Source: Leptolyngbya sp. SIO4C5
GTDB taxonomy: Bacteria > Cyanobacteriota > Cyanobacteriia > Phormidesmidales > Phormidesmidaceae
DNA: 19,630 bases
Assembly: GCA_010671965.1 (NCBI GenBank)
Contig: JAAHIC010000001.1
Coordinates: 1 to 19,630, forward strand
Direction: 5' to 3'
Shown here: in pieces, positions 418 through 15,225 of the stretch
How positions within the stretch are numbered: position 1 is the stretch's first letter
How the letters are laid out: each line of letters starts with the position of its first letter
Program-made: the position numbers and the translations under genes
The notes under the pieces: generated by a model
What the model saw: the letters and a program-made list of their open reading frames with translations, nothing else
Database searches by the model: none
What the model was told of the DNA's origin: nothing

Positions 418-1044
418 ATGCCGAAGGTCAATCGCAAAGGGCAAGCTGAAGTTTTAAGTCAGGAGCAGTTGCAGCAGCTCTGGAGCGAACTTAACTTTCC
501 GCACGCTTTGATCACTCAATTGGCCTACTACACGGGAAGCCGCATCAGCGAAATCTGCTCACTCAAGGCTGAAGATGTCAGCGCCGGTAAGGTGGTGATC
601 CGCCAGCACAAGACCGAGCGCACAAAAGAAGTTGTGATAGTGCCCCCGTTAAAGATGGCGATCGCCTCAGCGCCTCTCCCCTCAACCGGGTATCTCTTTC
701 CAGCGGCGACATGGACAAGGGCAACGGTCAAGCGCTATCGGATTCAGCGCCATAGCACCGGCGACCGTCACTTTGAGCAGGTGGGTGAATTAGGCCCGCG
801 CCCGCATATCAGCACTCGCGCCGTGGATAAGGCGTTGCGGAAAGCCTGTGACACGCTTGACTTGGAGGGAGTGAGCACGCATACCTTTAGGCGATCGCTG
901 GCAACACATCTGTATGATGCGGGAGTGCCGCTGCGACAGATTATGGAGATTACGGGCCATGCGAGCTTGGCCTCGTTGACGAGCTATCTGAATATTGAAC
1001 AGCGGGCAGCGAGTGATGCGCTGCTGAGTTTCTTCGCGACTTGA
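418..1044 (+). CDS. Tyrosine recombinase/integrase, catalytic domain only
   Basis: The 208 aa product carries the tyrosine recombinase (phage integrase) catalytic set: Arg42 in GSRISEI, Lys65 in the QHKTERTK hairpin, His155 and Arg158 in HTFRR, His181 in TGHAS, and the nucleophile Tyr190 in SYLNIE. Such enzymes cut and rejoin DNA at specific sites, for integration, excision or resolution of plasmid dimers. Full-length members are usually around 300 aa with an N-terminal core-binding domain. This one begins almost directly at the catalytic domain, so it is either a short stand-alone subtype or an N-terminally shortened gene. No upstream extension is visible, and GGAG lies close to the chosen ATG. 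It is isolated, on the opposite strand to the partition genes and next to the psbA terminator. Resolvase duty for the adjacent replicon, or past integration beside psbA, are both plausible inferences. Confidence 0.85.
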   Translation: MPKVNRKGQAEVLSQEQLQQLWSELNFPHALITQLAYYTGSRISEICSLKAEDVSAGKVVIRQHKTERTKEVVIVPPLKMAIASAPLPSTGYLFPAATWTRATVKRYRIQRHSTGDRHFEQVGELGPRPHISTRAVDKALRKACDTLDLEGVSTHTFRRSLATHLYDAGVPLRQIMEITGHASLASLTSYLNIEQRAASDALLSFFAT

Positions 1045-1286
1045 TAAGGCGATAGCGGGGTTTGAGTAGTAGATGACCCAAAACCTACGCTAAGCACCTT
1101 TAGCTCTATGTACCAATTGGCCTAGTGTTCAATTAGTACGTCTCATTGAGACTGAGAAGGCGAAAAGCAGTGTCTTTTAAGTCTTTATATACCAATAGTT
1201 TCAGCCTTAGCGTATGTTTCTGTTCCATTGCTCCTCAAACCCTGATACTGAGCGCTAGATTTAGACACTCGTTCGCTTTTCTATAT

Positions 1287-1310
1287 CTGTATTTCTTTAT
1301 TTCTGTAAAT
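1287..1310 (+). repeat. 24-bp element downstream of the partition genes
   Basis: The 24 bases starting CTGTATTTCTTTATTTCTG match the element at 2240-2263 at 22 of 24 positions, in the same orientation. The two copies bracket the partition operon. It is a candidate binding site for the ribbon-helix-helix partner, for example a centromere half-site; this is inference from position and repetition. Confidence 0.55.
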
Positions 1311-1328
1311 ACGTAAGTAAAGAAATAC
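1289..1328 (-). terminator. Inverted repeat at the end of the partition operon
   Basis: An 11-bp inverted repeat (GTATTTCTTTA / TAAAGAAATAC) with an 18-base spacer sits immediately beyond the stop codon of the minus-strand partition operon, which lies at 1331. The stem is AT-rich, so as a terminator it would be weak. It overlaps the 24-bp element and may instead be part of a protein-binding site. Confidence 0.35.
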
Positions 1329-1330
1329 GA

Positions 1331-1609
1331 TTACCCGTAATTCTCTTCCAACAGCTCCCGCAACATCTCTATCATCGTTACCCCCTCCATCACTGCTTTA
1401 CCCTTAATCTTCCGGTGTAGAGACTCTGGTATGTCGAGCGTTAGGCGCTTGAGCTTTTCCTTGGATTCTTCAGCCTTGGATGGCATTGGTTCAGCCTTAT
1501 CAGTAGGGGGCGTCTTTGGTTCCGTTCGGACTTCGCGCGTCTCTACCCAATCATCGAGATTTGCTTGAGGTTTAGGTTGGGATCCAAAGGTAACTTTCTT
1601 ACGTGCCAT
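1331..1609 (-). CDS. Ribbon-helix-helix partition partner (ParB/ParG-like)
   Basis: The 92 aa product has a basic, disordered-looking N-terminal half rich in Lys, Pro and Glu, then a ribbon-helix-helix fold at about residues 53-90: a strand (KRLTLDIPE) followed by two helices (SLHRKIKGKAVMEG and TMIEMLRELLEE). This architecture, a flexible tail plus a C-terminal RHH dimer that binds DNA, is that of ParG-type centromere-binding proteins paired with small ParA ATPases. Its ATG overlaps the 3' end of parA by 11 bases, so the pair is translated together. A likely role is binding the 24-bp elements on either side of the operon, both to segregate the replicon and to repress the operon. The family assignment rests on fold pattern and gene order, not on strong sequence identity. 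Confidence 0.75.
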   Translation of the reverse strand: MARKKVTFGSQPKPQANLDDWVETREVRTEPKTPPTDKAEPMPSKAEESKEKLKRLTLDIPESLHRKIKGKAVMEGVTMIEMLRELLEENYG

Positions 1610-2234
1610 TGTTCAGCTCCAATAGCTCATCAGCTAGCGCCATGATTTCTTTAGCAGCTTGTCCTTTTGGATCGGTTTCTAGAACAGTCTGCCCAGTGGC
1701 TGCTGACTCAGCAAACGGTACTCGCTGACAGACTTGCGATCGCAGCACCGGAATATCAAACCCAGACAGCGCTTCCACCACATCGCGCCCGATCGCTGTA
1801 TTCACAATTTTACGATTAATCGCAAATACAGATTTAAGTTTTTCCTTAAATACAGAAGCTTCTCGAAAAAGGTCGATCACTTCTTGAGCGGCCCAGACAT
1901 CGTAGGGCGAAGGCTGAACGGGAATGAGAACGAGATCGGCAGCGGCGATCGCAGAGCGGGCCAGTTCGCTCACACGCGGCGGCCCATCAATCACGACGTG
2001 GTCATAGTTCTTTGCCATTTCTGGTAGGTCACGGTGAATTGTCGGACGATCTAAGCCCACAACGCTGAAGGGCGGCTTATCTTCTCGTGCGGCGGCCCAG
2101 TCTCGCGCCGAGCCCTGCGGATCAGCATCGACGAGCAACACCAAAGCCCCTTTAGTCGCTAGGGCGTGGCTGATGTGAACCGCTAGAGTTGTCTTACCGA
2201 CACCCCCTTTCTGATTCTGGACTGAGATAATCAT
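1599..2234 (-). CDS. parA: ParA-family partition ATPase (small, type Ib)
   Basis: The 211 aa product is a deviant Walker-type ATPase that moves or positions plasmids before division. The Walker A motif KGGVGKTT is at residues 9-16, a second conserved segment VDADPQGSA starts near residue 35, and the Walker B strand VVIDGPP lies around residue 80. The protein starts directly at the nucleotide-binding domain and has no N-terminal helix-turn-helix, which defines the small type Ib (ParF-like) class that usually works with an RHH partner. That partner gene follows with an 11-base overlap. The start MIISVQNQKGG is the usual one for the class. Immediately upstream are two tandem 24-bp repeats that probably act as operator, and possibly centromere. 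Confidence 0.9.
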   Translation of the reverse strand: MIISVQNQKGGVGKTTLAVHISHALATKGALVLLVDADPQGSARDWAAAREDKPPFSVVGLDRPTIHRDLPEMAKNYDHVVIDGPPRVSELARSAIAAADLVLIPVQPSPYDVWAAQEVIDLFREASVFKEKLKSVFAINRKIVNTAIGRDVVEALSGFDIPVLRSQVCQRVPFAESAATGQTVLETDPKGQAAKEIMALADELLELNNGT

Positions 2235-2239
2235 GATTT

Positions 2240-2287
2240 CTGTTTTTCTTTATTTCTGCAAATCTGTTTTTCCTTATTTGCAGTGAA
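2240..2287 (+). promoter_or_regulatory. Tandem 24-bp repeats upstream of parA (operator/centromere candidate)
   Basis: Two units of 24 bases lie head to tail, starting CTGTTTTTCTTTATTT (2240) and CTGTTTTTCCTTATTT (2264); these first 16 bases differ at one position. They begin six bases from the parA start, where an operator would lie. The first unit matches the element beyond the other end of the operon at 22 of 24 positions. Binding by the RHH partner is inferred. Confidence 0.55.
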
Positions 2288-2696
2288 GCGTATTTGAAGA
2301 AAGTTGCTATTGCGATTTTATGGTGAAAGGTAGTTCAGGATTTACGAAAGCCTTGCAACTTTCCCAGCACCCTCAGATCCAGCTTTGCCTAGGCGAATAA
2401 ACTTGTAGCCGTAACGAAACCTGCGATCGCCACCTAAACAACACGCTTAAGACTCTAGCTCCCAGCTTGACCAAGCTAGGGATTTTGCGCATGTGATGTC
2501 TTTCTTTCTCAGCTTCTCGATATCTACCCTGTCGGTTCCTACCTTTAGACACATGAGCCGCTAGTCAGCTTGCTCTCAGATTTCTCAGGAACCCGTTAAG
2601 CCATTCTCAGGTTGCGGTCAGAGAAGCCTCAGAGAGAGCCGTCATAGTAGGACTCAAGATGATTGAAGTCAAAAACGCAAACTAAGGAGCTAAATC
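2288..2696. other. Intergenic region between parA and the secreted repeat gene
   Basis: I see no coding sequence here. It contains one HIP1 site near 2428, a short imperfect dyad around 2455-2485, and the 11-mer GTCATAGTAGG at 2641, which recurs at 3928. Promoters for parA (leftward) and for the gene at 2697 (rightward) must lie here, but no convincing -35/-10 pair stands out. Confidence 0.4.
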
Positions 2697-3074
2697 ATGA
2701 AACGCATCACCTTCGCTATCTTCTCTCTCGCCCTCTCTGCCGCAGCTATCTCTCCGGCCCAGGCAATCACCGCCGAATCGGCCAATCGCATTGACCAGGC
2801 TCGCCAAGAACATCTCGATAACAAATCCTCCGACAAATTTGACCAACTGCGCTCTGAACACTTAGACAACAAAGAGGAAACCAAGTTTGACCAGCTGCGC
2901 CGCGACCATCTGAACAACAAAGAAGACTTCTCCAAGTTCGATCGCCTGCGCCGCGAGAACCTGAGCAAGTCCACTGATAAGTTCGACCAGCTACGCTCTG
3001 AGCACTTGGACAATAAAGAAGAAACCAAGTTTGACCAGCTGCGCCGCGACCACCTGAACAACAAAGCTATCTAA
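2697..3074 (+). CDS. Secreted/periplasmic charged repeat protein, function unknown
   Basis: I do not recognise this 125 aa protein. Residues 1-23 form a clear Sec signal peptide: a basic start MKR, a hydrophobic core, and a cleavage site after AQA. The mature part is built from six copies of a roughly 16-residue unit with consensus KFDQLRSEHLDNKEET, very hydrophilic and probably helical. Units 2-3 and 5-6 are nearly identical, also at DNA level (about 2836-2931 against 2980-3065), so the gene grew by an internal duplication. AAGGAG at 2684-2689, seven bases before the ATG, is an excellent ribosome binding site, and two terminators follow, so this looks like an expressed single-gene unit. The regular charged helices could bind protein, polysaccharide or metal; nothing in the sequence decides. 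It sits between the partition and replication genes of the plasmid-like segment. Confidence 0.8.
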   Translation: MKRITFAIFSLALSAAAISPAQAITAESANRIDQARQEHLDNKSSDKFDQLRSEHLDNKEETKFDQLRRDHLNNKEDFSKFDRLRRENLSKSTDKFDQLRSEHLDNKEETKFDQLRRDHLNNKAI

Positions 3075-3121
3075 GCGCTCTATCGGCTAGCGTTCGAGTT
3101 ACACGCTACACCTTCAACACC

Positions 3122-3152
3122 AAAGCCCTCGACTCATGCGCGGGGGCTTTTT
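3122..3152 (+). terminator. Terminator after the repeat-protein gene
   Basis: Arms AAAGCCCTCG (3122-3131) and CGGGGGCTTT (3141-3150) pair over 10 bp with one G-U pair, a 9-base loop and a following T run. It lies about 50 bases after the stop codon. Confidence 0.8.
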
Positions 3153-3198
3153 CCAAGCTTGATGCACGGCTCCTTGTATCAATCATCGATGCATCAAG

Positions 3199-3227
3199 GC
3201 CCTAGTCGTTTTGGCTAGGGCTTTTTT
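3199..3227 (+). terminator. Second terminator in tandem
   Basis: GCCCTAG (3199-3205) pairs with CTAGGGC (3215-3221), followed by six T residues. A longer dyad, CTTGATGC at 3158-3165 and GCATCAAG at 3191-3198, lies between the two terminators. The tandem arrangement should isolate the upstream gene well. Confidence 0.8.
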
Positions 3228-3267
3228 GGTGGCAATAAGGGAAGCGATCGCTTTACTGCTGAAACTG

Positions 3268-3414
3268 TTACTGCTTTTGCTCAATCCACTCAGTTAACTC
3301 TTTCACTGTCTGTGCGTAGTCTTTTAGGGCTACCAAGACGTTTTCTAACGGTTGCCTTACATCTGTGTTAGGACGATGACCAGTGTTATTAGTGGCGGCT
3401 TGAAACTCGCTCAT
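3268..3414 (-). CDS. Possible small protein, 48 aa
   Basis: An open frame from ATG at 3414 to TAA at 3268 encodes 48 aa, beginning MSEFQAATNNTGHRPNTD and ending in a probable amphipathic helix (LENVLVALKDYAQTVKELTEWIEQKQ in two parts: LENVLVALKDYA, QTVKELTEWIEQKQ). The composition looks protein-like and the C-terminal heptad spacing suggests a short coiled coil. No good ribosome binding site precedes it and I know no homologue. It lies between the tandem terminators and the CopG-like gene, in the opposite direction. It may be a real small plasmid protein or chance. Confidence 0.35.
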   Translation of the reverse strand: MSEFQAATNNTGHRPNTDVRQPLENVLVALKDYAQTVKELTEWIEQKQ

Positions 3415-3614
3415 CGCAAGAACACAGCGAACGGAGCGTAGCACTTCCGCTCCGCTTCTCGTCTAAGTGCGAAGAGAGCAGCCAGCGAAGTTATGATTCA
3501 ATCCCAACGCAGAGCAATTACGCTCTCGTTTAAAGAATTTTGTAGACACTTGCGATCGCCCGTACTCTATTGTCATATGATTGTCTGAACTAAAAGATGA
3601 CTCGGAGATGATAG

Positions 3615-3791
3615 ATGACTACAGAAACCCCTGTAGAGAAACGGCGCGATCAGATGATTCGGATGCGGCCCTCTCTTAAAAAGAAGGCTCAGATCGAGGC
3701 AGTCTACCGCGAGTGCAAGCTCAGCGACATTATCGAAGACGCTTTGAACCTTTACTTTGCTCAGAAAGAACGTTCAGAAACGTCCTCATAA
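3615..3791 (+). CDS. CopG/Arc-type ribbon-helix-helix regulator, 58 aa
   Basis: A 58 aa frame starts MTTETPVEKRRDQ and has the RHH layout: a strand (QMIRMRPS, about residues 13-20), helix A (LKKKAQIEAVYREC) and helix B (KLSDIIEDALNLYFAQKE). GGAG at 3604-3607 lies seven bases before the ATG, a good ribosome binding site. RHH proteins of this size bind DNA as dimers. On plasmids they typically limit copy number by repressing the initiator gene, or act as antitoxins. No toxin gene is visible beside it, and the next gene downstream is a probable replication protein, so copy-number control is the better inference. A HIP1 site lies near 3552, upstream of the start. Confidence 0.7.
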   Translation: MTTETPVEKRRDQMIRMRPSLKKKAQIEAVYRECKLSDIIEDALNLYFAQKERSETSS

Positions 3792-4123
3792 GCACTCACC
3801 TCTTGCAAACAGTAGTAAGGAGGTACAGATCAAGTCCAAACTAAGCAAGGTTTAAGTGGATACACGAAGCTTACAGCGGGAAAGTCTAAAAGCTTCAGCA
3901 GAATCTCGAAAGATGTTTGAACGTCCTGTCATAGTAGGGTTTCAGAGTCATCTACCTGTTGATTCTGCAGTATGAAACCACTCAAAAACAAAAATTCCCC
4001 CGGACAAACACTCCGAGAGAATCTGAAAATCCTTCAAACAGTGCGACATTAGAACCGCACACACCTAGAAGGAAATCCACCGCTCCTGTAGAAACCACTC
4101 ATTATTGAAGGCCGCCATTTGCG
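3792..4123. other. Intergenic region before the winged-helix gene
   Basis: No convincing gene is seen. AAGGAGGT at 3817-3824 is a perfect anti-16S match with no usable start codon after it, which suggests a lost gene start. The 11-mer GTCATAGTAGG at 3928-3938 repeats the one at 2641. At the right edge GCCGCC (4111-4116) and GGTGGC (4123-4128) can form a 6-bp hairpin that includes the GTG start of the next gene. Confidence 0.4.
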
Positions 4124-5482
4124 GTGGCTATTATGACTATGTTCATTATGACTCAAAATCGGGCGGAAGCAACTCCGCAAAATGGCCCTATTGTCGAAAA
4201 AACTCGATACTACCAGTTCACCCCAGAGGTAGCCCGGAAGCTACGCAAAGCCAAGCTAACTCGCTCAGAGTGGGAGCTGTGGAGCTATCTCACAACCCTC
4301 GATCCCTTCGGCGATCGCTATGTTCAACTCCCTACGCTAAAGGAAGTTTTAGCCGAAGTTGAGATTTCTAAAGCAACGTTCTACCGAGCGATCGCCAAGC
4401 TGCAAGAGCATGACCTGATCGATTTTCAGGTGGGTGACATCAGGTTTCGTAATTTACTCGGACGAGAGAATAGTCTCAAAAATGCGACACCAGTCTCAAA
4501 AATGAGAAAGTTGTCTCAAAAATGCGACACCAGTCTCAAAAATGAGAAAACTTTCGCAGAACTGAGACTCGATTCTCAAAATTGCGAAAATCGATCGCCA
4601 AAACCCCCGCAGGCTCTAGCGTCTAGATCGCCTCATACTCTTCAGACTTTTCAAACAGATCCAAACACTTTAAAACCGCAACCGAGTGTGTGTTTTGAGG
4701 AAAATAACCAAAAGTCCAAAGAGGTTGATCAAGAAAAAATTGCTGGTCAGCGATCGCCCGTCAAGCTAACAGAAAAAGAAAGTTGTCAAAGACCCCTTAC
4801 AACAAAGCGAGAGACTGTCCCTGATACCTCTAATGACCGCAAGAAAATTCTATGGCGAGCGAAAAAAATAGGCGTCAACTTTGACGATCGCAAGCTGAAA
4901 CAGGCGATCGCGGCTCATCCCGATCGCTTAGAGCAAGCCGTGACTGCTTTGGTGGAGAAGTCTGAAACAGTACGCTATCCGACTCGCTTCTTGGAGCGGG
5001 CCATCTTGGAAGCCTGGGAGCCGGAGACAAAGCAAAATCTAAGGTTTAGCCAGTGGTTTGATGAGGCCAAGCGGCAGGGCTGTGAAGTGCTAGGCGGCCA
5101 GATAATTGATGACGTGCAGTGGGTGTATGCCTCAGGCGGGCAGCCGTATCGCTGGCATGAGTTAAAAAGCTTGTCCTGGGATGAGCTAAAAGCCAAGTTG
5201 AATCCAGTTCCAGCAGATCTAGCACCGCCCGGATCAGAGGTAATTGCCTATCAGCCTAGATTGTTCCAGGAAGCGTCTGAAACCTTATTCAATGACCTTT
5301 CCCCTTTGTTAGTGGCCGTAGACGCTGAAATTGGCCGCTTAGGCTGGTCTGAGGCAACGTTGTCAGAACGCCTGTATCAGTGGTTTGTCAAACGTGAGCT
5401 GTCGTCGCTGATAGACGACCAGCTTTATGAGCTGCTAGATCTGCTGCGAGAGATTGGTGAACCTGTGGAGGTGGCATCATGA
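4124..5482 (+). CDS. Winged-helix plasmid protein, probable replication protein
   Basis: The frame encodes up to 452 aa. Residues about 28-110 look like a winged helix-turn-helix: YYQFTPEVARKL, then TRSEWELWSYL, then the recognition segment TLKEVLAEVEISKATFYRAI and a wing (LIDFQVGDIRFRN). A low-complexity, lysine- and serine-rich linker (about 117-240) follows, including residues encoded by a 20-bp DNA repeat. The C-terminal part is helical, with RYPTRFLERAILEAWEP around residue 287. A DNA-binding domain with a tail is usual for plasmid replication or copy-control proteins, and its place before a RepA-type gene fits. The start is uncertain: GTG 4124 lies inside a small hairpin, and ATG 4133, 4139 or 4148 are alternatives, none with a strong ribosome binding site. 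The TGA overlaps an ATG (ATGA) that begins the decayed reading frame downstream. Confidence 0.65.
   Translation: MAIMTMFIMTQNRAEATPQNGPIVEKTRYYQFTPEVARKLRKAKLTRSEWELWSYLTTLDPFGDRYVQLPTLKEVLAEVEISKATFYRAIAKLQEHDLIDFQVGDIRFRNLLGRENSLKNATPVSKMRKLSQKCDTSLKNEKTFAELRLDSQNCENRSPKPPQALASRSPHTLQTFQTDPNTLKPQPSVCFEENNQKSKEVDQEKIAGQRSPVKLTEKESCQRPLTTKRETVPDTSNDRKKILWRAKKIGVNFDDRKLKQAIAAHPDRLEQAVTALVEKSETVRYPTRFLERAILEAWEPETKQNLRFSQWFDEAKRQGCEVLGGQIIDDVQWVYASGGQPYRWHELKSLSWDELKAKLNPVPADLAPPGSEVIAYQPRLFQEASETLFNDLSPLLVAVDAEIGRLGWSEATLSERLYQWFVKRELSSLIDDQLYELLDLLREIGEPVEVAS
4473..4592 (+). repeat. 20-bp tandem repeats inside the winged-helix gene
   Basis: Four near-identical 20-base units start at 4473, 4493, 4513 and 4533, each opening GTCTCAAAAATG. 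They alternate between endings GCGACACCA and AGAAA. Two decayed units continue in exact register at 4553 and 4573. The period is not a multiple of three, so the unit is read in all three frames and the repetition is a DNA property, not a protein repeat. Twenty bases is close to two helical turns, as in protein-binding iterons. Confidence 0.85.
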
Positions 5483-5936
5483 CGCCCCTTCGGGTTTACA
5501 ACTTGCGGTACTGCTAGATGTGGTCCCCTACGAAATCGGAAATCCGTGTCTGCTACTTTCTCAGGCCAAGGTGGGCGATCGCTATCAGCTATACAGGCGA
5601 ACGGGAGCGTTGGAAATAGCTGAACCGGGTTAGGTCGTTTTTCGCGTGGGTGAGCAGCACTAGCTTTTCAATCAGCGAGCGGCTGAAGAGATCCAGCTAT
5701 CTCCCCAAAACAGCCTGCTGAGCGATCGCGCCAGCGATGGCTTAGTCCAAAAGGACAATCTTGCGGCTGGCTAGAGGAGGGCATCGGCAACAAGAAGCGT
5801 AAGAACCCTACCACCAGCTACTACTACTGCTGGGATGAGGTAATTCAACCTGGAGAAACGCAGCGGCAGAAGATGTCTGTCAAAGTTCTGATTTCTGTGC
5901 AATTGTCACCTAATACGATGACTAGAATTTTCGCTT
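5479..5936 (+). pseudogene. Decayed gene remnant between the two replication genes
   Basis: A reading frame once coupled to the upstream gene by ATGA (5479-5482) is broken. The ATG frame stops after 12 codons. Protein-like sequence continues in another frame from 5481 (LLDVVPYEIGNPCLLLSQAK, then VGDRYQLYRR) but meets TAG at 5631 and 5661. It runs on as FNQRAAEEIQLSPQNSLLSD and then shifts frame near 5729 to RQRWLSPKGQSCGWLEEGIG and NKKRKNPTTSYYYCWDE. The last part resembles a small cyanobacterial protein type I have seen, with GN(K/R)KRKNP and aromatic SYYYCW motifs; I know no function. At least two frameshifts and two stops separate the pieces, so it is a pseudogene or, less likely, badly affected by sequencing errors. 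Confidence 0.55.
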
Positions 5937-7076
5937 ATGCTCACACCGTCACAGAGTAAGCTTTTAAACTTCGCAGTACAAATTCGTGAGACTGAGTATG
6001 AGCCTGAGAAGGCCTTTATTAGTCGAGAAATGGTGCAGGCAACATTACCTCATAGAAATCCTGGTGATATTCCTGCTTGGAGCCGAGTAAACGGCAACTA
6101 TGCACTAGTAATTCAACCGGGTTGGGATAGCTGGAAAAATCAATCTTTCGGCTATCCGTATGGAACGATTCCTCGGCTTTTAATTTTCTGGCTCATGACA
6201 GAAGCGCTCAAGACCGGCAGCAGGCGTTTAGAGGTGGGTGGTTCATTAGCTGAGTTCATGGGCAAGCTCGGGCTTGATTCTTCTCGAGGAGGCAAGCGCA
6301 GCGATGCAGCTCGACTTCGCGACCAAATGGAGCGGCTTTTTAGAGCACGCATTAGCTTTGAATACCGAGATGATGAGCAAGCAAGCTGGCACGATCTGCA
6401 AATAGCCTCTAAGGGCATGATGTGGTGGCATCACAATTTAGCTGAGCAGCCGACGCTTTGGGAGAACTGGGTTGAGCTGAGCGAGGATTTCTTTAGGGCT
6501 GTAACTGCCCATCCCATCCCAGTTGATATGAATGCTTTGCAACGTCTCAAAGGTTTGGCTTTAGCACTCGATCTTTATGCCTGGCTGACCCATGAGTCAT
6601 TTCGTAGCAATGCTCGAAAGAAAGCTCGAAAGGTTTCATGGCGATCGCTGCACAACCAATTTGGAGCCGAATATAGCGATTTGCGAAATTTCAGCCGGAA
6701 AATGATGGAAGCTCTCAACAAGGTCAAGATCGTTTTTCCAGGCCTTGAAGTTGAAACGTTCAAAGGGGGAATCGCTGTCAAACCTGGCCAGTTAGCGGTT
6801 TCTGCCATAAAGACAGCGTCAGCTCCACGAAAGTTAGAGAAGTCTACTCTTCCCACCTCCACAAGCTCAGAGGATAAGGGTGATGAAATCCCTGAATCTC
6901 TACGGCTATCGGCCAAGACATTAGGCAAAGCAACTGAGTTGATGCAAGAGACTGACTGGGACATCGCTGACATGGAAGAGCAATTTTACAATTACGTCCG
7001 AAGCAAAGGAGTACCAAAAGACCTAGGTCGAGCATTTCTAGGCTTTGTACGCAAGAAAATCCAATCTGAATCTTGA
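5937..7076 (+). CDS. Plasmid replication initiator, RepA_C family
   Basis: The 379 aa product resembles plasmid-encoded RepA proteins of the RepA_C type. Diagnostic segments are PYGTIPRLLIFWLMTEA (about 74-90), the basic RRLEVGGSLAEFMGKLGL that follows, and the RSDAARLRDQMERLFRARIS stretch around 121-140. Further on come a WVELSEDFF strand and a second helix-rich module with LALDLYAWLTHESF and KVSWRSLHNQFG, typical of a winged-helix half of an initiator. The last 90 residues look flexible plus a short helical tail. The initiator should bind the 17-bp iterons that begin about 155 bases downstream and recruit DnaA and helicase. It is in the same direction as the winged-helix gene, separated by the pseudogene. 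ATG 5937 has no clear ribosome binding site, but the protein start MLTPSQSKLLNFAVQIRETE looks natural. Confidence 0.8.
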   Translation: MLTPSQSKLLNFAVQIRETEYEPEKAFISREMVQATLPHRNPGDIPAWSRVNGNYALVIQPGWDSWKNQSFGYPYGTIPRLLIFWLMTEALKTGSRRLEVGGSLAEFMGKLGLDSSRGGKRSDAARLRDQMERLFRARISFEYRDDEQASWHDLQIASKGMMWWHHNLAEQPTLWENWVELSEDFFRAVTAHPIPVDMNALQRLKGLALALDLYAWLTHESFRSNARKKARKVSWRSLHNQFGAEYSDLRNFSRKMMEALNKVKIVFPGLEVETFKGGIAVKPGQLAVSAIKTASAPRKLEKSTLPTSTSSEDKGDEIPESLRLSAKTLGKATELMQETDWDIADMEEQFYNYVRSKGVPKDLGRAFLGFVRKKIQSES

Positions 7077-7195
7077 ATTCCAAGTTCTGAACTTAAAATC
7101 TTTTCCTCCAAGCAATCGCTGAATTCCAAAGCCCTTGACCCCCGCGTTCCCAAATCGGTGGGTCTGATCATACACTCACCCTCCTGATTTCTGTT
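7077..7195. other. Left edge of the origin region
   Basis: No gene is supported between the repA stop codon and the first DnaA box. A half iteron, CGCTGAATT, sits at 7118-7126, matching the first half of the iteron unit downstream. No other structure was found. Confidence 0.4.
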
Positions 7196-7472
7196 TGTGG
7201 AAAACTTGTTAAGAATTATTTCTTTTCAACGCTGAATTGGTACACATTGCGACTTTTTCCACAAAAAACGGCGCTGAATTGGTACACATTGCGACTTTTT
7301 CCACAAAAAACGGCGCTGAATTGGTACACATACGAACGCTGAATTGGTACACATTAGGAGCAAAACAACGCTGAATTGGTACACATTCTTACGCTGAATT
7401 GGTACACATATCCTTTAATACACCTTTAGTTTTAAAAACACCTTTAGTTACGCGCAGCTTTTCTGTGGAAAA
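7196..7472. other. oriV: Iteron-type plasmid replication origin
   Basis: Three hallmarks of an iteron origin lie together just after the initiator gene. Six 17-bp iterons run from 7231 to 7409. Four exact TTTTCCACA DnaA boxes occur at 7196-7204 (minus), 7255-7263 (plus), 7297-7305 (plus) and 7464-7472 (minus), so the outer boxes face inward around the iterons. An AT-rich stretch at 7411-7449 contains a 12-bp direct repeat ACACCTTTAGTT (7420 and 7438) suited to strand opening. The arrangement is seen directly; that it is an active origin is inference from iteron plasmids in general. Confidence 0.85.
7231..7409 (+). repeat. Six 17-bp iterons
   Basis: The unit GCTGAATTGGTACACAT occurs exactly at 7231, 7273, 7315, 7338, 7370 and 7393, all in the same direction. 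Steps are 42, 42, 23, 32 and 23 bases, that is about four, four, two, three and two helical turns, so the copies face nearly the same side of the DNA. The first three lie in a 42-bp repeat that also carries a DnaA box. They are the expected binding sites of the RepA_C protein. Confidence 0.9.
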
Positions 7473-7485
7473 CTCAAAGCGGAAC

Positions 7486-7569: not shown

Positions 7570-7582
7570 CGGAGGTTAACAA

Positions 7583-7605: not shown

Positions 7606-7618
7606 CAAAAAACAAGCA

Positions 7619-7765: not shown

Positions 7766-7775
7766 GCAAACGCTA

Positions 7776-8494: not shown

Positions 8495-8530
8495 GTAAAG
8501 AGCTGGTAGGTTACTTTCGCCTGGTTAGTT

Positions 8531-8561
8531 ACATTTGTTTATCCAAAAAGTAAACAAATGT
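8531..8561 (+). terminator. Hairpin after cpcS
   Basis: ACATTTGTTTA (8531-8541) and TAAACAAATGT (8551-8561) form a perfect 11-bp AT-rich stem with a 9-base loop, followed by TTCGTTTT. It begins 36 bases after the cpcS stop and probably ends that transcript. Confidence 0.6.
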
Positions 8562-8823
8562 TTCGTTTTGTGCGCGGCGAGATTAATCCTTTGTTGAAGG
8601 GAATTAGCCTTGACTGTCTCTGAAACTCTTTCTGTCAGGCAATTTTGGCTTTTAGACTACAGCATAAGTGCTGGTAAAAGCGAAAATCGAAATTAGAAAA
8701 AAGCTACACTTATCCACAAGATCTGTAACGTTTTATCAGAGCTGACGCAGCCAGAGACGTGCATTCCCCTATGATTGGGATGAATTTATACGGTTTCATA
8801 CGGATCAAGGAGCTTGCGTAGGC
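8562..8823. other. Upstream region of cpcG
   Basis: No gene is seen. A consensus DnaA box TTATCCACA lies at 8710-8718, apart from the origin cluster. AAGGAG at 8807-8812 is the ribosome binding site of cpcG. The cpcG promoter should be here, but only weak matches (for example TTGGGA near 8776 with CATACG downstream) are visible. Confidence 0.45.
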
Positions 8824-9582
8824 GTGGCTATTCCTCTATTAGAGTACTCCCCAGCTAGTCAAAATCAGCGCGTTGAGGGATATGTAGTTCCTGGAGATGA
8901 TCAACCTAAAGTTTACTCAACTGACAATATCCTCTCCGGAACAGAGATGGACAATCTGATTGAAGCGGCTTATCGTCAGATGTTCTTCTATGCTTTCAAA
9001 TGGGATCGCGAAGTTGCTTTAGAGTCTCAATTACGCACGGGTCAGATTACCGTCCGAGACTTTATTCGCGGGCTCATGCTGTCTAAGACTTTCCGAGATA
9101 GTTTTTACGAGAAAAATAGTAATTATCGTTTCGTTGAACAGTGCATTCAGCGCGTTCTGGGACGAGACCCTTACAACGAGCAGGAGAAAATTGCCTGGTC
9201 TATCGTGATTGCGACTAAGGGTCTTCAAGGCTTTGCAGACGCTTTACTCAACAGCGAAGAGTACATCAATAACTTTGGGTACAATACGGTACCCTATCAG
9301 CGTCGTCGAGTTCTACCTTCTCGTGAGGAAGGAGAACGCCCAATCAATATTAAGTCGCCTCGATACGATGCCTATTTTCGGGCCAAACTGGGCTTTCCTC
9401 AGCCTATCTGGCAGACTCAGGTGCGGCGCTTCCGCCCTCAAGAGAAGCAAGCTCGGGAGGGAGATCCGTCCCAGTTCCTGTCAATGGCTCAAAGTATTCG
9501 GCCCAGGAGCAATACTCCCCAGCAGCTCTCTGCGATGAATGTCGATTATCAAAAGGCTGTTCCTTACCGGAAACTTTCCTAA
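8824..9582 (+). CDS. cpcG: Phycobilisome rod-core linker CpcG
   Basis: The 252 aa product is a rod-core linker that fixes phycocyanin rods to the allophycocyanin core on the cytoplasmic face of the thylakoid. A phycobilisome linker domain occupies about residues 25-165, with [38 protein letters not shown], the [20 protein letters not shown] signature and the [20 protein letters not shown] end. The C-terminal 90 residues are basic and hydrophilic, with no membrane helix, so it is the conventional CpcG1 type and not the membrane-anchored CpcG2/CpcL type. The start is GTG 8824 with AAGGAG 11 bases upstream and the family-typical beginning [10 protein letters not shown]. It lies 445 bases before cpcB with a terminator-like structure between, so it is probably a separate transcript. 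Allophycocyanin core genes, its docking partners, are not in the window. Confidence 0.95.
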
Positions 9583-9602
9583 CAACGGCTTTAGATGTTT
9601 TT

Positions 9603-9699
9603 AGCGCTTTTGCAAATGTGCAGAGGGTGATGCTAGCTGCCTATGAGTTCTCAGGGCTGATCTAGCTACTCATTTGCTTAATTTGCAAAGGCGCTTTTT
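9603..9699 (+). terminator. Long-range stem terminator after cpcG
   Basis: AGCGCTTTTGCAAAT (9603-9617) pairs with ATTTGCAAAGGCGCT (9681-9695) over 15 bp with one G-U pair, and T residues continue to 9699. The 63-base loop may fold further. It begins 20 bases after the cpcG stop. The long loop is unusual for an intrinsic terminator. Confidence 0.55.
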
Positions 9700-10027
9700 C
9701 GTGCTTTCAAGCAAAATTGTTGCCATCAAATAATTTAATTTTTTCTTAATTTTTCGATTCGTTTTGAGTGTCTTTTGCGGGCTGTTATTAGCTTTCGTAA
9801 CTTTTTGTAAAAAAAGACCGCTTTCTAATAATTTTTAACAATTAGCACCTTCATGGCGTTGTATAAATGGTTCCTGAAGGGCTTTAAGAAATAAACAACA
9901 GGTTTTTGACCTGAAAATTGTTCAATTTGCTCTCATCTAAGCTGAGTAAATTTGGCATTAACTTAATTAAGCTTTTCATTTTTCAATAACCCTACCCAAT
10001 CGAAACCAACTAGGAGGCTAGTTACCT
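9700..10027 (+). promoter_or_regulatory. cpcBA promoter and leader
   Basis: This AT-rich stretch precedes the most highly expressed genes of the operon. TATAAAT at 9862-9868 is the best -10 candidate, giving a leader of roughly 150 bases, but no good -35 lies at the normal distance. A 6-bp dyad, CCTTCA (9848-9853) and TGAAGG (9875-9880), brackets the -10 element and could bind a regulator. AGGAGG at 10012-10017 is a strong ribosome binding site 10 bases before cpcB. Long leaders are usual for cpc operons. Confidence 0.5.
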
Positions 10028-10546
10028 ATGCTCGACGCATACGCAAAGGTTGTTGCTCAAGCTGATACCAGAGGCGCATACGTTTCCTCTTCTGAGGTAG
10101 ACGCTCTGATGAACATGGTTAAAGAAGGCAATAAGCGCCTAGACACTGTTAACCGGATCACCAGCAATGCTTCTTCCATCGTTGCTGATGCTGCTCGTTC
10201 TCTGTTTGAGGAGCAACCCCAGCTAATTTCTCCTGGTGGAAATGCTTACACCAACCGCCGGATGGCTGCTTGCCTCCGCGACATGGAAATCATCCTGCGC
10301 TATGTCACCTATGCAATGTTCACTGGCGATGCTAGCGTTCTTGATGATCGTTGCCTGAATGGTCTACGTGAGACCTATGTTGCCCTAGGTGTTCCTGGTG
10401 CTTCCACTGCAACTGGCATTCAAAAGATGAAGGATGCCGCTATTGGTATTGCTAACGATCGCAACAACATCACTCAAGGTGACTGCAGCTCTCTCATGTC
10501 TGAGCTGTCTGGCTATTTCGATCGCGCTGCATCAGCAGTTGGCTAA
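10028..10546 (+). CDS. cpcB: C-phycocyanin beta subunit
   Basis: The 172 aa product has the exact family length. It forms the alpha-beta monomer of phycocyanin that builds the rod discs of the phycobilisome. Bilin-binding Cys82 is in [11 protein letters not shown] and the second bilin site Cys153 is in [12 protein letters not shown]. Asn72, the residue that is methylated by CpcM, is present in [11 protein letters not shown]. Cys109 is the third conserved cysteine. Cys82 is served by CpcS-type lyase, encoded upstream; Cys153 needs CpcT, which is not encoded in the window. It is the first gene of cpcBACCDEF, 88 bases before cpcA. Confidence 0.98.
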
Positions 10547-10634
10547 GTCTGAATATCTTTAGTTTGACTGACTATTAGCGAGAGCGAAGTCTAACTGATC
10601 GAATCAATTTGAGAGAGTAGGAGAGATTAAAATC

Positions 10635-11123
10635 ATGAAAACCCCTTTAACTGAAGCTGTTGCAGCAGCAGATTCCCAAGGCCGTTTCCTCAGCCCCACT
10701 GAGTTCCAAGTTGCTTTTGGCCGCATTCGCCAGGCGGAAGCCAGCCTCACTGCAGCTAAGTCCTTAGCAGATAAGGCTCAGCAATTGGCAGATGGTGCTG
10801 CTCAAGCGGTATACCAGAAGTTTCCCTACACGACCCAGATGCAGGGACCTCAGTATGCAGCTGACCAGCGCGGTAAGGACAAGTGCGTTCGGGACATCGG
10901 CTACTATCTGCGGATGATCACCTACTGCCTAATCACTGGTAGCACTGGTCCTATGGACGAGTACCTGATTGCTGGCTTAGCTGAAATCAATAGCACTTTT
11001 GAGCTATCCCCCAGCTGGTACATCGAAGCTCTCAAGCACATCAAGGCTAACCACGGTCTATCTGGTGACCCTGCTGTTGAAGCTAATTCCTACATCGACT
11101 ACGCAATTAATGCTCTAAGCTAG
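10635..11123 (+). CDS. cpcA: C-phycocyanin alpha subunit
   Basis: The 162 aa product matches the usual alpha length. Cys84, the single phycocyanobilin site, is in [17 protein letters not shown]. The beginning [20 protein letters not shown] is characteristic. The bilin is attached by the CpcE/CpcF lyase pair, encoded at the end of the same operon. AGGAG at 10619-10623 is the ribosome binding site. The stop codon TAG at 11121-11123 is embedded in a strong hairpin, described separately, so the 3' end of the cpcBA message is probably protected or the transcript partly ended there. Confidence 0.98.
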
Positions 11124-11133
11124 AGCATTAATT
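11105..11133 (+). promoter_or_regulatory. Hairpin spanning the cpcA stop codon
   Basis: A perfect 13-bp stem (11105-11117 with 11121-11133, arms AATTAATGCTCTA and its complement) closes on a 3-base loop AGC, and the stop codon TAG is the first part of the right arm. It would form once ribosomes leave cpcA and could block 3' exonucleases, giving more cpcBA than linker message. Confidence 0.7.
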
Positions 11134-11135
11134 TG

Positions 11136-11193
11136 GCCCGGAAAAGCAGCTGTTCTTCTACATCAAGTAGTAAAGAGACCTGTTTTTTCGGGC
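11136..11193 (+). terminator. Attenuator-like inverted repeat between cpcA and cpcC
   Basis: GCCCGGAAAAGCAG (11136-11149) pairs with CTGTTTTTTCGGGC (11180-11193) over 14 bp with two G-U pairs. It lies just after the stop-codon hairpin. Partial termination here would lower cpcC-cpcF expression relative to cpcBA, a stoichiometry step known in cpc operons; activity in this case is inference. Confidence 0.5.
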
Positions 11194-11258
11194 TGTTTTG
11201 TAGGTGCCGGTTTGAAAGAAAACTGTCAAAAGTTGCTTATCAAGCGGAGAACATAATT

Positions 11259-12071
11259 ATGGCCAGCTTAAAAGAAGCAGGAAAGTTAGGTATTCAACCA
11301 TTCAACGAGGCTGAGATGGTTGAACTGCGACCTAACTGGGGAGCGGGCGATGTGCAAGCGGTCATTTGGGCTGCTTATCGTCAGGTGTTAGGTAATGAGC
11401 ATTTGATGCAGAGTGAGCGACTGAGCAGCGCTGAATCTCTGTTAAAGCAGGGTAATATCACTGTTCGAGATTTTGTACGAGCGATCGCGCAGTCAGAACT
11501 ATATCGAGAAAAGTTTTTTTATCCTAATTTTCAGATTCGCTTTATTGAATTGAATTTTAAGCATCTGCTTGGCCGTGCTCCTTACGATGAGGCGGAGATT
11601 GCAGAGCATGTTGATCTTTATAGCTCTCAGGGATACGAGGCTGAAATCAATTCTTATATTGATTCTGCAGAATATCAAAAGAGCTTTGGCGATCGCATAG
11701 TTCCGTACTACCGCGACTTTGTCACTCAAGGAATTGGTCAGAGAACGGTTGGATTTAGCCGCTTGTTCCAGCTTTATCGGGGCTACGCTAACAGCGATCG
11801 CGCTCAGAATCAAAAGCAAGGACGGTTGATCTGGGAAGTAGCTAGAAACACGGCTTCTCCCCTACCTCAGTCATCCGCTGCGCTGACAGGTGGTAATAGA
11901 AGCGATCGCAGCAATACCTATCGGGTCAAAGTTGCCCAATCGCCAACATCAGGCTCAACAGTAGTCCGGCAGGGAACGCGAGACTTTGTAGTTCCTTACA
12001 GCCAGCTTTCCAAGAAGCTGCAGGAGCTAAATAAAAGAGGCAGCAAAATTATCAGCGTGACCTCTGCTTAA
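11259..12071 (+). CDS. cpcC: Phycocyanin rod linker CpcC (copy 1)
   Basis: The 270 aa product from ATG 11259 is a rod linker that stacks phycocyanin hexamers. A phycobilisome linker domain covers about residues 20-180, with [60 protein letters not shown] and the [19 protein letters not shown] close. A C-terminal CpcD-like domain (about 220-270) starts at [11 protein letters not shown] and ends [24 protein letters not shown] at 11245-11248 supports this ATG. The frame is open further left to 11133, but that part lies in the attenuator hairpin and does not look like protein. A second, related linker gene follows 74 bases later; the pair arose by duplication and probably occupies different rod positions. 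Confidence 0.95.
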
Positions 12072-12145
12072 GCCCATTGAGGATGCTTTTCAGATTTTAG
12101 AATCGTCAGGAATTCGATTTTTAATTCATTACGAAGGAGATTTAA

Positions 12146-13024
12146 GTGGCTATCACAACAGAATCCTCTCGGTTGGGAACAACCGCCTATAGAGACATTA
12201 GTCCGGTTGAGCTGCGTCCTAATGCGTCTCGTGATGATGTCGAGATGGTCATTCGCGCTGTTTACCGGCAGCTCTTGGGCAATGATTATCTAATGCAGTC
12301 TCAGCGTTTAGGAAGCGCTGAATCTTTACTGCGTGACGGAGGTCTGACGGTTCAAGACTTCGTACGCCAGGTAGCTAAGTCAGAGCTATACAAGTCAAAG
12401 TTTTTCTACAACTGCTTTCAGACTCGTACTATCGAGCTGAACTATAAGCATCTGCTGGGTCGCGCTCCCTATGATGAAGCAGAAATTGTCTACCACTTAG
12501 ATCTCTACGAAAACGAGGGATACGAAGCTGATATCGACTCTTATATCGATTCTGCGGAATATCAGAGCGCCTTTGGTGACAACATTGTGCCGTACTACCG
12601 GGACTTTGAAACCACCAACGGTGGTGCAGGCCAGCAGACAGTTGGGTTTACACGCATGTTTCGCCTCTATCGGGGCTATGCCAATAGCGATCGCGCCCAG
12701 CCTGAAGGCGGAACGCCTCGCCTAGCTAGAGAACTCGGCCGCAACCAAGCCTCATCAGTGGTAGCGCCTGCTCAAGGTGGCGGTGGCTGGGGCTATCGTC
12801 CTTCTAAGCAGGGGGTTACGCCTAAAAGCGCTTTTGGCGGCGTCAGCTCTTTAGGCCAAGGCGGACGGCTTTACCGGGTTGAAGTCGCGGGTGTTTCTGG
12901 TCCTCGTTATCCTCGCGTTCGTCGCAGCAACCAGTCGTTTGTAGTTCCTTACGAAGAACTTTCAAATCAAATGCAGAGAGTTCAGCGTATGGGCGGCAAG
13001 ATTGCTAGCATCACGCCTATTTAG
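12146..13024 (+). CDS. cpcC: Phycocyanin rod linker CpcC (copy 2)
   Basis: The 292 aa product has the same layout as its neighbour: an N-terminal linker domain with [59 protein letters not shown] and [20 protein letters not shown], then a longer Gly-rich linker (about 205-235) and a CpcD-like C-terminal domain from [20 protein letters not shown] to the end. GTG 12146 is the start, with AAGGAG upstream at the right distance and the family-typical opening [11 protein letters not shown]. Tandem cpcC genes are common where rods hold three phycocyanin discs. A terminator-like stem separates it from cpcD. Confidence 0.95.
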
Positions 13025-13046
13025 CTTTTTCCCTATTGATTTAACC

Positions 13047-13082
13047 AAAGGGGAAAGTTAGCAACATCTAATTTCCCCTTTT
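13047..13082 (+). terminator. Terminator or attenuator between cpcC and cpcD
   Basis: AAAGGGGAAAGTTAG (13047-13061) pairs with CTAATTTCCCCTTTT (13068-13082) over 15 bp with one G-U pair, loop CAACAT, ending in Ts. It is a good intrinsic terminator within the operon, so readthrough into cpcDEF is probably partial. Confidence 0.7.
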
Positions 13083-13120
13083 AGGTTCTCTACTTAGCTA
13101 TTTGGAGAAAAAAGAGTCGC

Positions 13121-13384
13121 ATGTTGGGTCAATTTTTGGGTGGTAGAAGAAGCGGATCTCAGTCAAGCTCTCGCCTGTTTCGATATGAAGTAACAGGTTT
13201 GAGTCAAAATGAGCAAACCGATAAAACGGAATATCCTATTCGCTCTAGTGCTAGCACTTTTATCACGGTTCCCTATGAGCGGATGAACCAGGAGATGCAG
13301 CGCATTACTCAAATGGGTGGCACAATTGTCAGTATTGAGCCGGTAAATTTTGACCCAACTGCAGGAAATAGCGAAGAAGGCTAA
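13121..13384 (+). CDS. cpcD: Rod-capping linker CpcD
   Basis: The 87 aa product is the small linker that caps the outer end of phycocyanin rods. The CpcD fold is visible as SRLFRYEVTGLSQNEQ, the STFITVPYERMNQEMQRITQ segment and the closing GGTIVSIEPVNF; the same domain ends both CpcC proteins. Length fits the family. The start MLGQFLGGRRSGSQSS is typical. It is 15 bases before cpcE, so the two are translated from one message. Confidence 0.95.
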   Translation: MLGQFLGGRRSGSQSSSRLFRYEVTGLSQNEQTDKTEYPIRSSASTFITVPYERMNQEMQRITQMGGTIVSIEPVNFDPTAGNSEEG

Positions 13385-13399
13385 CTGTCGCTTTATCCT

Positions 13400-14260
13400 A
13401 TGGCATCAGACTCAGGTTCTGAAAATTCTCGGGCATCATCTTCAGCAAAAGCTGCTGCTGGTGATGCTTTAACAGTTGAGCAGGCGATCGCTTATCTCAA
13501 AGGTAGCGATTTAAGCTTGCGAGTCTATGCCGCCTGGTGGCTCGGTCGTTTTCGCATCAATGACGATCATGCTGTCGCAGCTTTAATTGATGCCTTGGCA
13601 GATGAAGACGATCGCACAGTTGCAGGGGGATATCCGCTGCGCCGCAACGCTGCCCGGGCTCTGGGTAAATTGGGCGATCAAAAAGCTGTTTCGGCCTTAG
13701 TAGATAGCCTAGGCTGCTCGGATTTCTACGTCAGAGAAGCTGCAGCTCAGGCTCTAGAGATGCTGGGGAATCAAAAGAGTGTTCCTAGGCTGATACAGTT
13801 ACTCAAAAACGAAGTGCCTGGTACCCAGCCTTCGCCAGAGCAGCCTATTATGATTCAGCCTTACGATGCACTCATAGAAGCGTTGGGTACTTTGGGTGCA
13901 GTTGAGGCTAAGGCATTGATTGCGTCCTTTTTAGACCATCCGGTTGAGCGTGTCCAATATGCTGCTGCTCGATCCTTATACCAGATAGCTTCTGATACTC
14001 AAGAGGCTCAGCAGTATGGCGATCGCTTAATTCAGGCCCTATCTCATCAAAAGCTGCAGCTACGACGCGCTGCTCTAGCCGATTTAGCCGCAATAGGATA
14101 TCTACCCGCCGCTAAGGCGATCGCGGAGACACTTGCTGAAAATAGCCTCAAACTCATTGCTTTAAAGGGTTTGCTTGAAAAAGAGCTGCAGCAGTCTGAT
14201 ACAAATCAGCTCTCCCATGAGTCAATTCAGGTAATGCAGCTGATGGATACTCTGCTGTAG
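13400..14260 (+). CDS. cpcE: Phycocyanin alpha-subunit bilin lyase, CpcE subunit
   Basis: The 286 aa product is CpcE, one half of the E/F-type heterodimeric lyase that attaches phycocyanobilin to Cys84 of the alpha subunit. It is built of HEAT/armadillo-like helical repeats, seen as recurring segments such as AVAALIDALADEDDRTV, NAARALGKLGDQKAVSALVD, VREAAAQALEMLGNQKSVPR and VQYAAARSLYQIAS. The N-terminal signature EQAIAYLKGSDLSLRVYAAW, followed by WLGRFRINDDHAVAALIDAL, is characteristic of CpcE. Length is normal for the family. It follows cpcD closely; cpcF comes 137 bases later. Confidence 0.95.
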   Translation: MASDSGSENSRASSSAKAAAGDALTVEQAIAYLKGSDLSLRVYAAWWLGRFRINDDHAVAALIDALADEDDRTVAGGYPLRRNAARALGKLGDQKAVSALVDSLGCSDFYVREAAAQALEMLGNQKSVPRLIQLLKNEVPGTQPSPEQPIMIQPYDALIEALGTLGAVEAKALIASFLDHPVERVQYAAARSLYQIASDTQEAQQYGDRLIQALSHQKLQLRRAALADLAAIGYLPAAKAIAETLAENSLKLIALKGLLEKELQQSDTNQLSHESIQVMQLMDTLL

Positions 14261-14317
14261 CTGCAGCCCAGCCTATTATTCTCTACTTAAAAGTACTGTT
14301 TTTTGTAACGTTTGCTT

Positions 14318-14336
14318 ACTTACAAGTCATGTAAGT
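14318..14336. promoter_or_regulatory. Small dyad in the cpcE-cpcF gap
   Basis: ACTTACA (14318-14324) and TGTAAGT (14330-14336) form a 7-bp dyad with a 5-base spacer within a 137-base AT-rich gap. It may mark an internal promoter or operator for cpcF. Only the dyad is directly seen. Confidence 0.3.
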
Positions 14337-14397
14337 TATTAAATTGCTACTTATGGGGATTTTTTTGCCCTAAGCAGCAGTCTCAGGACAATAGGGA

Positions 14398-15225
14398 ATG
14401 GCAAACACTCAGGTTCTCAAGCTGATTCGTGCAGTTGACGAAGCAGCCTCTCCTGACCAGTTAATTAAGGCCGTGCGGGCACTGTCTCAATCAGGAACAG
14501 AGGCAGTCATTCCAACTTTGATTACTGTTTTGGGCTATAACAACCCAGGGGCCTCGGTTGCGGCAGTAGAAGGACTCGTGAAACTAGACTCTGTTGCTGT
14601 TCCCTTTTTGCTAGAGCAAATTCAGGAAAATACTAACTACAGTGCCAGAGCTTGGGCCATTCGCGCGTTGGCCGGTATTGGTGATCCGCAAGGATTGGAA
14701 ACTTTACTCACTGCTGCAATTGATGATTTCTCTATGAGCGTACGCCGAGCCGCGGCGAGAGGTCTAGGAATTTTGCGCTGGCAGATGCTGGTACCCGAAA
14801 AGCTGATATCTGGCCAAGAGCAGGCTTTGGGCGTGCTTTTTCAGGCTGTAGAAAAAGATCCTGAATGGGTTGTCCGCTATGCTGCCGTTGTTGGGCTACA
14901 GGAGTTTGCTGCCGCTGTCTTTGTCAGGCATCCTAACTGGCTAATCAAGATTCAAAATCAGCTAGGGCAGATTGCTCAAGCCGATGCTAATCTAGCTGTG
15001 AAAACACGCGCATTGCTGGCCCAACAGCGAATTCAGCCAAGCCTAGAAGAAATTCAGCTCAAAATAGCCGATGTTGATGCGACAGAAAGCAACCACTGGC
15101 AGCTAACGCTGGAAAGGCTCTACAGTCGCAAAGCACAAGAACGATGTCAGGAAGAAGGCAACCCATATAAGTTTCGAGCTGTAGCTGCCGCAATCCAAGA
15201 TATGCTAGGTGAACAAACTCGATAG
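14398..15225 (+). CDS. cpcF: Phycocyanin alpha-subunit bilin lyase, CpcF subunit
   Basis: The 275 aa product is CpcF, the partner of CpcE. HEAT-like repeats are evident: IRAVDEAASPDQLIKAVRAL, AVIPTLITVLGYNNPGASVA, YSARAWAIRALAGIGDPQGL, MSVRRAAARGLGILRWQMLV and WVVRYAAVVGLQEFAAAVF. The last 60 residues leave the repeat pattern, with ERLYSRKAQERCQEEGNPYK. Slightly longer than many CpcF proteins but in family range. It ends the recognisable cpc genes. The gap before it is longer than elsewhere in the operon, so independent expression is possible. Confidence 0.92.
   Translation: MANTQVLKLIRAVDEAASPDQLIKAVRALSQSGTEAVIPTLITVLGYNNPGASVAAVEGLVKLDSVAVPFLLEQIQENTNYSARAWAIRALAGIGDPQGLETLLTAAIDDFSMSVRRAAARGLGILRWQMLVPEKLISGQEQALGVLFQAVEKDPEWVVRYAAVVGLQEFAAAVFVRHPNWLIKIQNQLGQIAQADANLAVKTRALLAQQRIQPSLEEIQLKIADVDATESNHWQLTLERLYSRKAQERCQEEGNPYKFRAVAAAIQDMLGEQTR

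Follow-up and report, generated by a model that had tools for sequence, protein, structure and literature searches.

We analysed a 19,630-bp stretch of DNA from Leptolyngbya sp. SIO4C5 (the window), which is the complete contig C1 of the source draft genome (G000; 5,604,439 bases in 1,203 contigs, 98.78% complete, 1.7% contamination) and carries phycocyanin rod genes (cpc) and psbA, the gene of the D1 protein. We consider it fairly probable that bases 1–18153 constitute a rod-and-D1 plasmid of about 18.2 kb, with the photosynthesis genes lying beside an intact-looking replicon. From 5′ to 3′, the contig holds a tyrosine recombinase, ParA with a probable ribbon-helix-helix (RHH) partner, the RepA_C initiator, iterons, cpcS, cpcG, cpcBAC1C2DEF, orf589 and psbA. 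The elements named in a first-pass annotation of this DNA (ParA/RHH, RepA_C, iterons, DnaA boxes, recombinase, cpcS, cpcG, cpcBACCDEF and psbA) are present at about the places it gave, the RHH call being weakly supported; the psbA copies exist as it claimed, but outside the interval 418–15225 in which it had put them, with both contig ends falling within psbA. If psbA1 closes onto base 1 with a gap of 72 nt, the resulting circle would measure 18,225 bp. The features on which this reading draws are as follows (C-numbers denote contigs of the draft in question; G001 is the one congeneric genome compared).

3–95, + strand: psbA 3′ end, the last 30 residues of D1 plus stop, from translation
418–1044, + strand: short tyrosine recombinase (Phage_integrase, E 2.6e-24; XerA-like match under cut-off)
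1331–1609, − strand: RHH protein, probable ParA partner (PHROG Arc-like repressor, E 1.1e-4; overlaps the parA end)
1599–2234, − strand: ParA partition ATPase (NCBIfam ParA_partition, 287.5 bits, cut-off 180)
5937–7076, + strand: RepA_C replication initiator (Pfam RepA_C, E 2.7e-25)
7230–7409, + strand: probable replication origin (six exact copies of an 18-bp iteron, surrounded by DnaA-box-like sites)
7955–8494, + strand: cpcS-type bilin lyase (CpeS, E 4.4e-36; internal ATG at 7955, reading frame open from 7910)
8824–9582, + strand: cpcG rod-core linker (CpcG models at most 250 bits, under cut-off; PBS linker domain)
10028–10546, + strand: cpcB (phycocy_beta, 305.7 bits, cut-off 279.3)
10635–11123, + strand: cpcA (phycocy_alpha, 298.8 bits, cut-off 269.45)
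11259–12071, + strand: cpcC1 rod linker (PBS linker domain; internal ATG at 11259, reading frame open from 11133)
12146–13024, + strand: cpcC2 rod linker with CpcD-like end (linker model matches; PBS linker domain)
13121–13384, + strand: cpcD (rod_cap_CpcD, 129.4 bits, cut-off 80)
13400–14260, + strand: cpcE (NCBIfam, 399.9 bits, cut-off 330)
14398–15225, + strand: cpcF (NCBIfam, 252.7 bits, cut-off 220)
15315–17084, + strand: orf589, also between cpcF and psbA in G001 (71% identity there)
17259–18153, + strand: psbA1, 5′ part (NCBIfam, above cut-off), ending in a 127-bp repeat at 18027–18153
18153–18154, no strand: junction between psbA1 and the DNA preceding HIT, at the exact end of the 127-bp repeat
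18239–18586, + strand: HIT-family protein (Pfam HIT, E 3.2e-31)
18736–19630, + strand: psbA2, 5′ part, ended by the contig end

The replicon half shows the elements of an iteron-type theta plasmid, namely a RepA_C gene, direct iterons near rep and partition genes, of which the RHH partner is the weak one. The iteron CGCTGAATTGGTACACAT occurs in six identical copies downstream of RepA, and a scan of the whole window allowing up to 4 mismatches returned the same six copies and no others. Ten sites in the window lie within one mismatch of TTATCCACA; four of them fall within 7196–7472, all reading TTTTCCACA, and two of these four sit inside a 42-bp direct repeat. Judged by the roles of their families, RepA acting on the iterons would start replication and ParA with the RHH protein would segregate the plasmid; the recombinase, perhaps a Xer-like dimer resolver, would keep it monomeric.

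The cargo half carries cpcS, cpcG, cpcB, cpcA, cpcC1, cpcC2, cpcD, cpcE and cpcF on one strand between 7955 and 15225. The scores of cpcB, cpcA, cpcD, cpcE, cpcF and psbA1 all exceed the NCBIfam cut-offs; cpcG and both cpcC genes matched linker models under the CpcG cut-offs, with the PBS linker domain above the Pfam cut-off in all three. Searches of the source genome returned nine matches to the Phycobilisome domain: cpcB and cpcA on C1; four that are allophycocyanin-type by best NCBIfam model (C713, C58 and two in C455; two of the four above cut-off); two in a single 1086-amino-acid frame of C455, which we take from its architecture to be ApcE; and one on C1094, weak and with no NCBIfam model match. 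Linker domains number seven, three on C1 and four in the 1086-amino-acid frame. Within the source draft, cpcBA, cpcC and cpcG were detected on C1 only, and a second cpc copy outside C1 is unlikely because the draft is 98.8% complete. These results indicate that C1, as predicted from its genes, encodes the only rods detected in this genome, and that the antenna core is encoded on other contigs. The proposed plasmid would thus carry cpcBA, cpcC1, cpcC2, cpcD, cpcG and the lyase genes cpcE, cpcF and cpcS, plus psbA, with the allophycocyanin-type genes elsewhere.

We then examined the contig ends, where the psbA copies lie. Bases 1–127 are identical to bases 1–127 of C395, with divergence at 128, and bases 19504–19630 are identical to 18027–18153, with one difference directly before; exact 127-bp repeats at contig ends are a trace of branch points in de Bruijn assembly at k = 127. 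Comparison of psbA1 (17298–18153) with psbA2 (18775–19630) revealed 44 differences in the first 729 aligned sites and none in the last 127, a pattern that suggests sequence exchange between the two copies. The differences cluster at about 290–425. We infer that the 3′ regions of the two copies have about 326 nt (127 + 72 + 127) in common, identical in both and collapsed in assembly, the 72-nt gap being taken from the length of the G001 psbA gene. The halves can be paired because the source genome holds two psbA 5′ parts and two 3′ ends (C1 and C395); no further 5′ part or 3′ end was found in the draft, and a third match of the 5′ search, on C427 at 33% identity, is probably psbD. C395 carries ABC-transporter and UbiA-like open reading frames (ORFs; read by eye) and is therefore treated here as part of the chromosome.

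The junction at 18153|18154 is probably a misjoin, because it coincides, to the base, with the expected end of a k = 127 contig. Past 18153, psbA1 leaves the D1 match and enters DNA that precedes HIT-psbA2 in G001, a genome in which HIT-psbA2 and cpc are located on separate contigs. The HIT gene probably does not belong to the plasmid; if 1–18153 closes on itself, HIT-psbA2 would lead to C395. Around HIT, a search with a PAS-kinase query yielded no more than partial matches, all at or below 45% identity. We also considered the odd C-terminus of psbA1 as a real D1 variant, and dropped this candidate as the break coincides with the k-mer boundary.

A further-reaching version of the plasmid reading, which we put forward tentatively and hold to be somewhat doubtful, describes an obligate photosynthesis plasmid of about 18 kb that is the sole rod source of its host, the antenna core being encoded at other places in the genome, and that enters and leaves the chromosome by way of its own psbA. 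Already on the plasmid reading itself, the host would have to retain the plasmid, much as it would a tiny chromid, since no other rods were detected, and the identical DNA in its psbA and in the psbA behind HIT could allow chromosome entry and exit by homologous recombination. As regards chromid status, the sole detected rod genes sit beside plasmid-type replication genes; in G001 the operon has other neighbours, and a RepA search across 57 genomes of the family detected none in that genome.

Several observations weigh against the plasmid reading. The evidence for a circle consists of draft contigs, and the opposite pairing of the psbA halves gives an integrated form from the same graph. G001 has four psbA 5′ regions and 3′ ends on three contigs, so that psbA pieces do get lost in such drafts, and the source draft may lack some too. 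The join at 18153|18154, taken here as probably false, is nevertheless gap-free and contains no Ns. The RHH protein gave no Pfam or NCBIfam match, leaving the RHH call weak. Furthermore, near-identical orf589 (99%) and orf452 (97%) are found in other assemblies on contigs of 16,942 and 23,189 bp, where the plasmid and cpc genes may be on separate molecules.

The first-pass suggestion that the module is either extra-chromosomal or integrated stands as a pair of options (the replicon beside cpc looks complete, and the contig can close via psbA). Under integration, which we regard as unlikely, one psbA crossover would have placed the plasmid in the chromosome in the order HIT-psbA hybrid, recombinase, par, rep, cpc, orf589, psbA hybrid, C395, with rep and par as passengers, or free and integrated forms would coexist. 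This arrangement accounts for the same 127-bp repeats as the plasmid does, and the change from 44/729 to 0/127 between the psbA copies is as expected after an exchange; the DNA downstream of HIT-psbA2 also seems changed relative to G001, whose psbA2-type 3′ end was not found in G000. Against it, the replicon genes and iterons look intact, with no visible decay. Portions of four G001 proteins served as queries for an unoccupied chromosomal site, and no such site was located: in the source genome the aminotransferase matched at 84% (C258), GH3-like at 48% and 62% (C397 and C712) and glycosyltransferase at 25% (C673), and CrcB from G001 had no match. The composition of the contig (GC content 0.43–0.52) shows no clear step between the plasmid half and the cpc half and speaks for neither side.

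Two other explanations concern the joins of the contig itself. If the 18153|18154 junction were real, psbA1 would be truncated with an odd C-terminus and HIT-psbA2 would belong to the same replicon, for a circle of 19,702 bp. The contig is indeed continuous, with no Ns, and the DNA at 18100–18500 occurs nowhere else in the draft apart from the psbA repeat; we nevertheless find this improbable, given that the break lies exactly 127 bp past the final difference between psbA1 and psbA2, a distance equal to the repeat at the other end, that HIT-psbA2 and cpc sit on different contigs in G001, and that two psbA 3′ ends would then depend on a single input. A chimeric contig, in which plasmid genes and cpc operon derive from separate molecules falsely joined between the origin and cpcB, could appeal to the false-looking join at 18153|18154 and to the occurrence of near-identical orf589 and orf452 on different contigs of other assemblies. 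We judge it very improbable: in a comparison with the fetched loci, bases 96–7955 matched, in part, only C239, C395, one G001 contig and RepA relatives, and the surroundings of the origin–cpcS border showed no long exact repeat (fetched loci compared; 7077–10028 was outside the whole-genome search).

To place the cpc block in its lineage, we built a CpcBA tree of 95 rows from 100 loci (334 columns; one locus with no nearby cpcA and four duplicates dropped), 20 rows being from 39 searched genomes. The cpcBA genes of G000 and G001 are sisters with support of 100/100, and their identity (CpcB 94%, CpcA 96%) compares with 84% and 85% for the next row by CpcB. The order cpcBACCDEF-orf589-psbA recurs in G001 (DNA identity about 71%), other loci common to both genomes showing 75% and 80%; upstream of cpc, G001 has glycosyltransferase-like ORFs (read by eye), not a replicon. 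Given the sister cpcBA and the conserved order, the cpc-orf589-psbA block is, as far as these comparisons reach, no younger than the genus. In the tree, both congeners cluster with members of three other families (100/84); the eight remaining rows of their own family occupy another branch, and support at the deeper nodes is modest (90/78 and 91/86). This departure from the family above genus level can be explained by an older transfer into the genus or by noise from 334 columns.

These results bear on what the first-pass annotation had proposed for the origin and effect of the module. A cpcBA phylogeny following the species tree, with no second copy, which it had named as contrary evidence, was found at the level of the genus; above it, the family does not form one group. 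Recent gain, spread between strains and a change in usable light colour all lack support. In this genome cpcBA was detected on C1 alone, its sister position to the genes of the congener is fully supported, and the block is common to both congeners; among six backbone ORFs the Pfam scan found no relaxase or conjugation protein (shorter ORFs lay outside the scan). The second chromosomal cpc operon that it had suggested looking for was not detected in the source draft.

The backbone and the block hold further candidates:

1283–1310, + strand: T-rich repeat near the 3′ end of the par genes, from a repeat search; related copy at 2236–2263 upstream of parA
2697–3074, + strand: orf125, a repetitive 125-residue ORF with a near-identical ORF on contig C239 of the same genome
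4124–5482, + strand: orf452, a 452-residue ORF (PHROG DnaD-like helicase loader, E 2e-4, weak)

The T-rich repeats are a possible partition site. Searches of Pfam, NCBIfam and PHROG found no family for orf125 or orf589 and no clear one for orf452, a possible DnaD-like replication accessory by its weak profile match. The orf125 region (2511–2899) is 77% identical to the DNA directly downstream of a psbA 3′ end in G001 (contig C47, 460–845 of its locus), and because of this match the psbA-orf125 neighbourhood may be old in the genus. Because it sits between cpcF and psbA in both congeners, orf589 is a candidate regulator; three of its 26 homologues in a protein search carry XRE-type helix-turn-helix domains. 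Between the origin and cpcS, a perfect inverted repeat of 27 nt (loop of 30 nt) at 7486–7569 is perhaps a terminator, and a peptide frame at 7560–7770 in the same gap had no convincing match beyond the window's own loci. Contig C239 (23,795 bp) is itself plasmid-like, with a recombinase and a ParA-like ORF (read by eye). It shares three stretches with the backbone (82%, 90.6% and 85% identity), a likeness that suggests module exchange between plasmids of one genome; C239 was also tested as a closed circle and showed no terminal overlap.

We investigated how widely the replicon and its association with cpc occur. RepA matched 920 plasmid records by tblastn, each below 60% identity, and has relatives in 3 of the 57 genomes of the family (G000, G022 and G063); the RepA query found no relative in the scan of genome contigs, and viral contigs held no relative of orf589 or RepA. 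A plasmid DNA search with 418–7800 returned 213 records, and among the matches listed (best 20) the parA region alone matched. The CpcB scan of genome contigs gave 127 relatives, of which the best 80 were kept, with flanks of up to 10 kb, many ended by contig ends; homologues of the recombinase, RHH protein, ParA, orf125, orf452 and RepA were absent from these 80 loci (tblastn, 1e-6), a result that applies within such flanks and to single queries, which miss other Rep types.

If the circle is real, the host has entrusted its only copy of the rod genes to a very small replicon. Rod supply, or antenna size, might in that case track plasmid copy number, the rods would disappear in one step if the plasmid were lost, and psbA recombination would offer a concrete route for a light-harvesting operon to leave and rejoin the chromosome.

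Plasmid-borne phycocyanin is already known from a few cyanobacteria. Among the 72,556 PLSDB records searched, six match CpcB at E 1e-5, with identity exceeding 60% in two cases (Pseudanabaena PCC 7367, 81%; Kovacikia minuta, 74%), and 18 match psbA; two of these 18, from Kovacikia minuta and Fischerella sp. NIES-4106, are also in the CpcB list, as phycocyanin-like or allophycocyanin hits. A minimal replicon with a sole rod set and psbA was not found in PLSDB or among the titles and abstract openings listed in the literature searches (subscription journals and preprints being outside their scope). Plasmid pPSE7367.01 of Pseudanabaena sp. PCC 7367 (NC_019690) resembles C1 in its RepA match (47% over 77%), its cpcBA genes (CpcB 81%) and its rod linkers, and is also annotated with CpcT- and CpeS-type lyases; unlike C1, it measures 328,634 bp, is conjugative by PLSDB typing and has rep and cpc about 160 kb apart. 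For pREB3 of Acaryochloris marina MBIC11017, the excerpts used here describe phycocyanin genes with linkers and lyases on the plasmid and no corresponding chromosomal set, and report four cpcA/B paralogues, three cpcG and bilin synthesis genes, regained by horizontal transfer; the psbA paralogues of A. marina are mentioned in those excerpts with no link to pREB3 (PMC9324425, PMC11633204). Like pREB3 as so described, C1 has cpcBA, linkers and lyases beside plasmid genes; unlike it, C1 has one cpc set, adjoining psbA, in a block common to its congener. Rhodobacteraceae plasmids, according to excerpts of a further account, carry photosynthesis gene clusters with the replication module inside the cluster, and a chromosomal return has been proposed (PMC6052148). 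On the plasmid reading of C1, both cases place core photosynthesis genes on an extrachromosomal replicon; in contrast to C1, the Rhodobacteraceae cluster is anoxygenic, and its horizontal transfer is shown in that account by tree conflict (PMC6052148).

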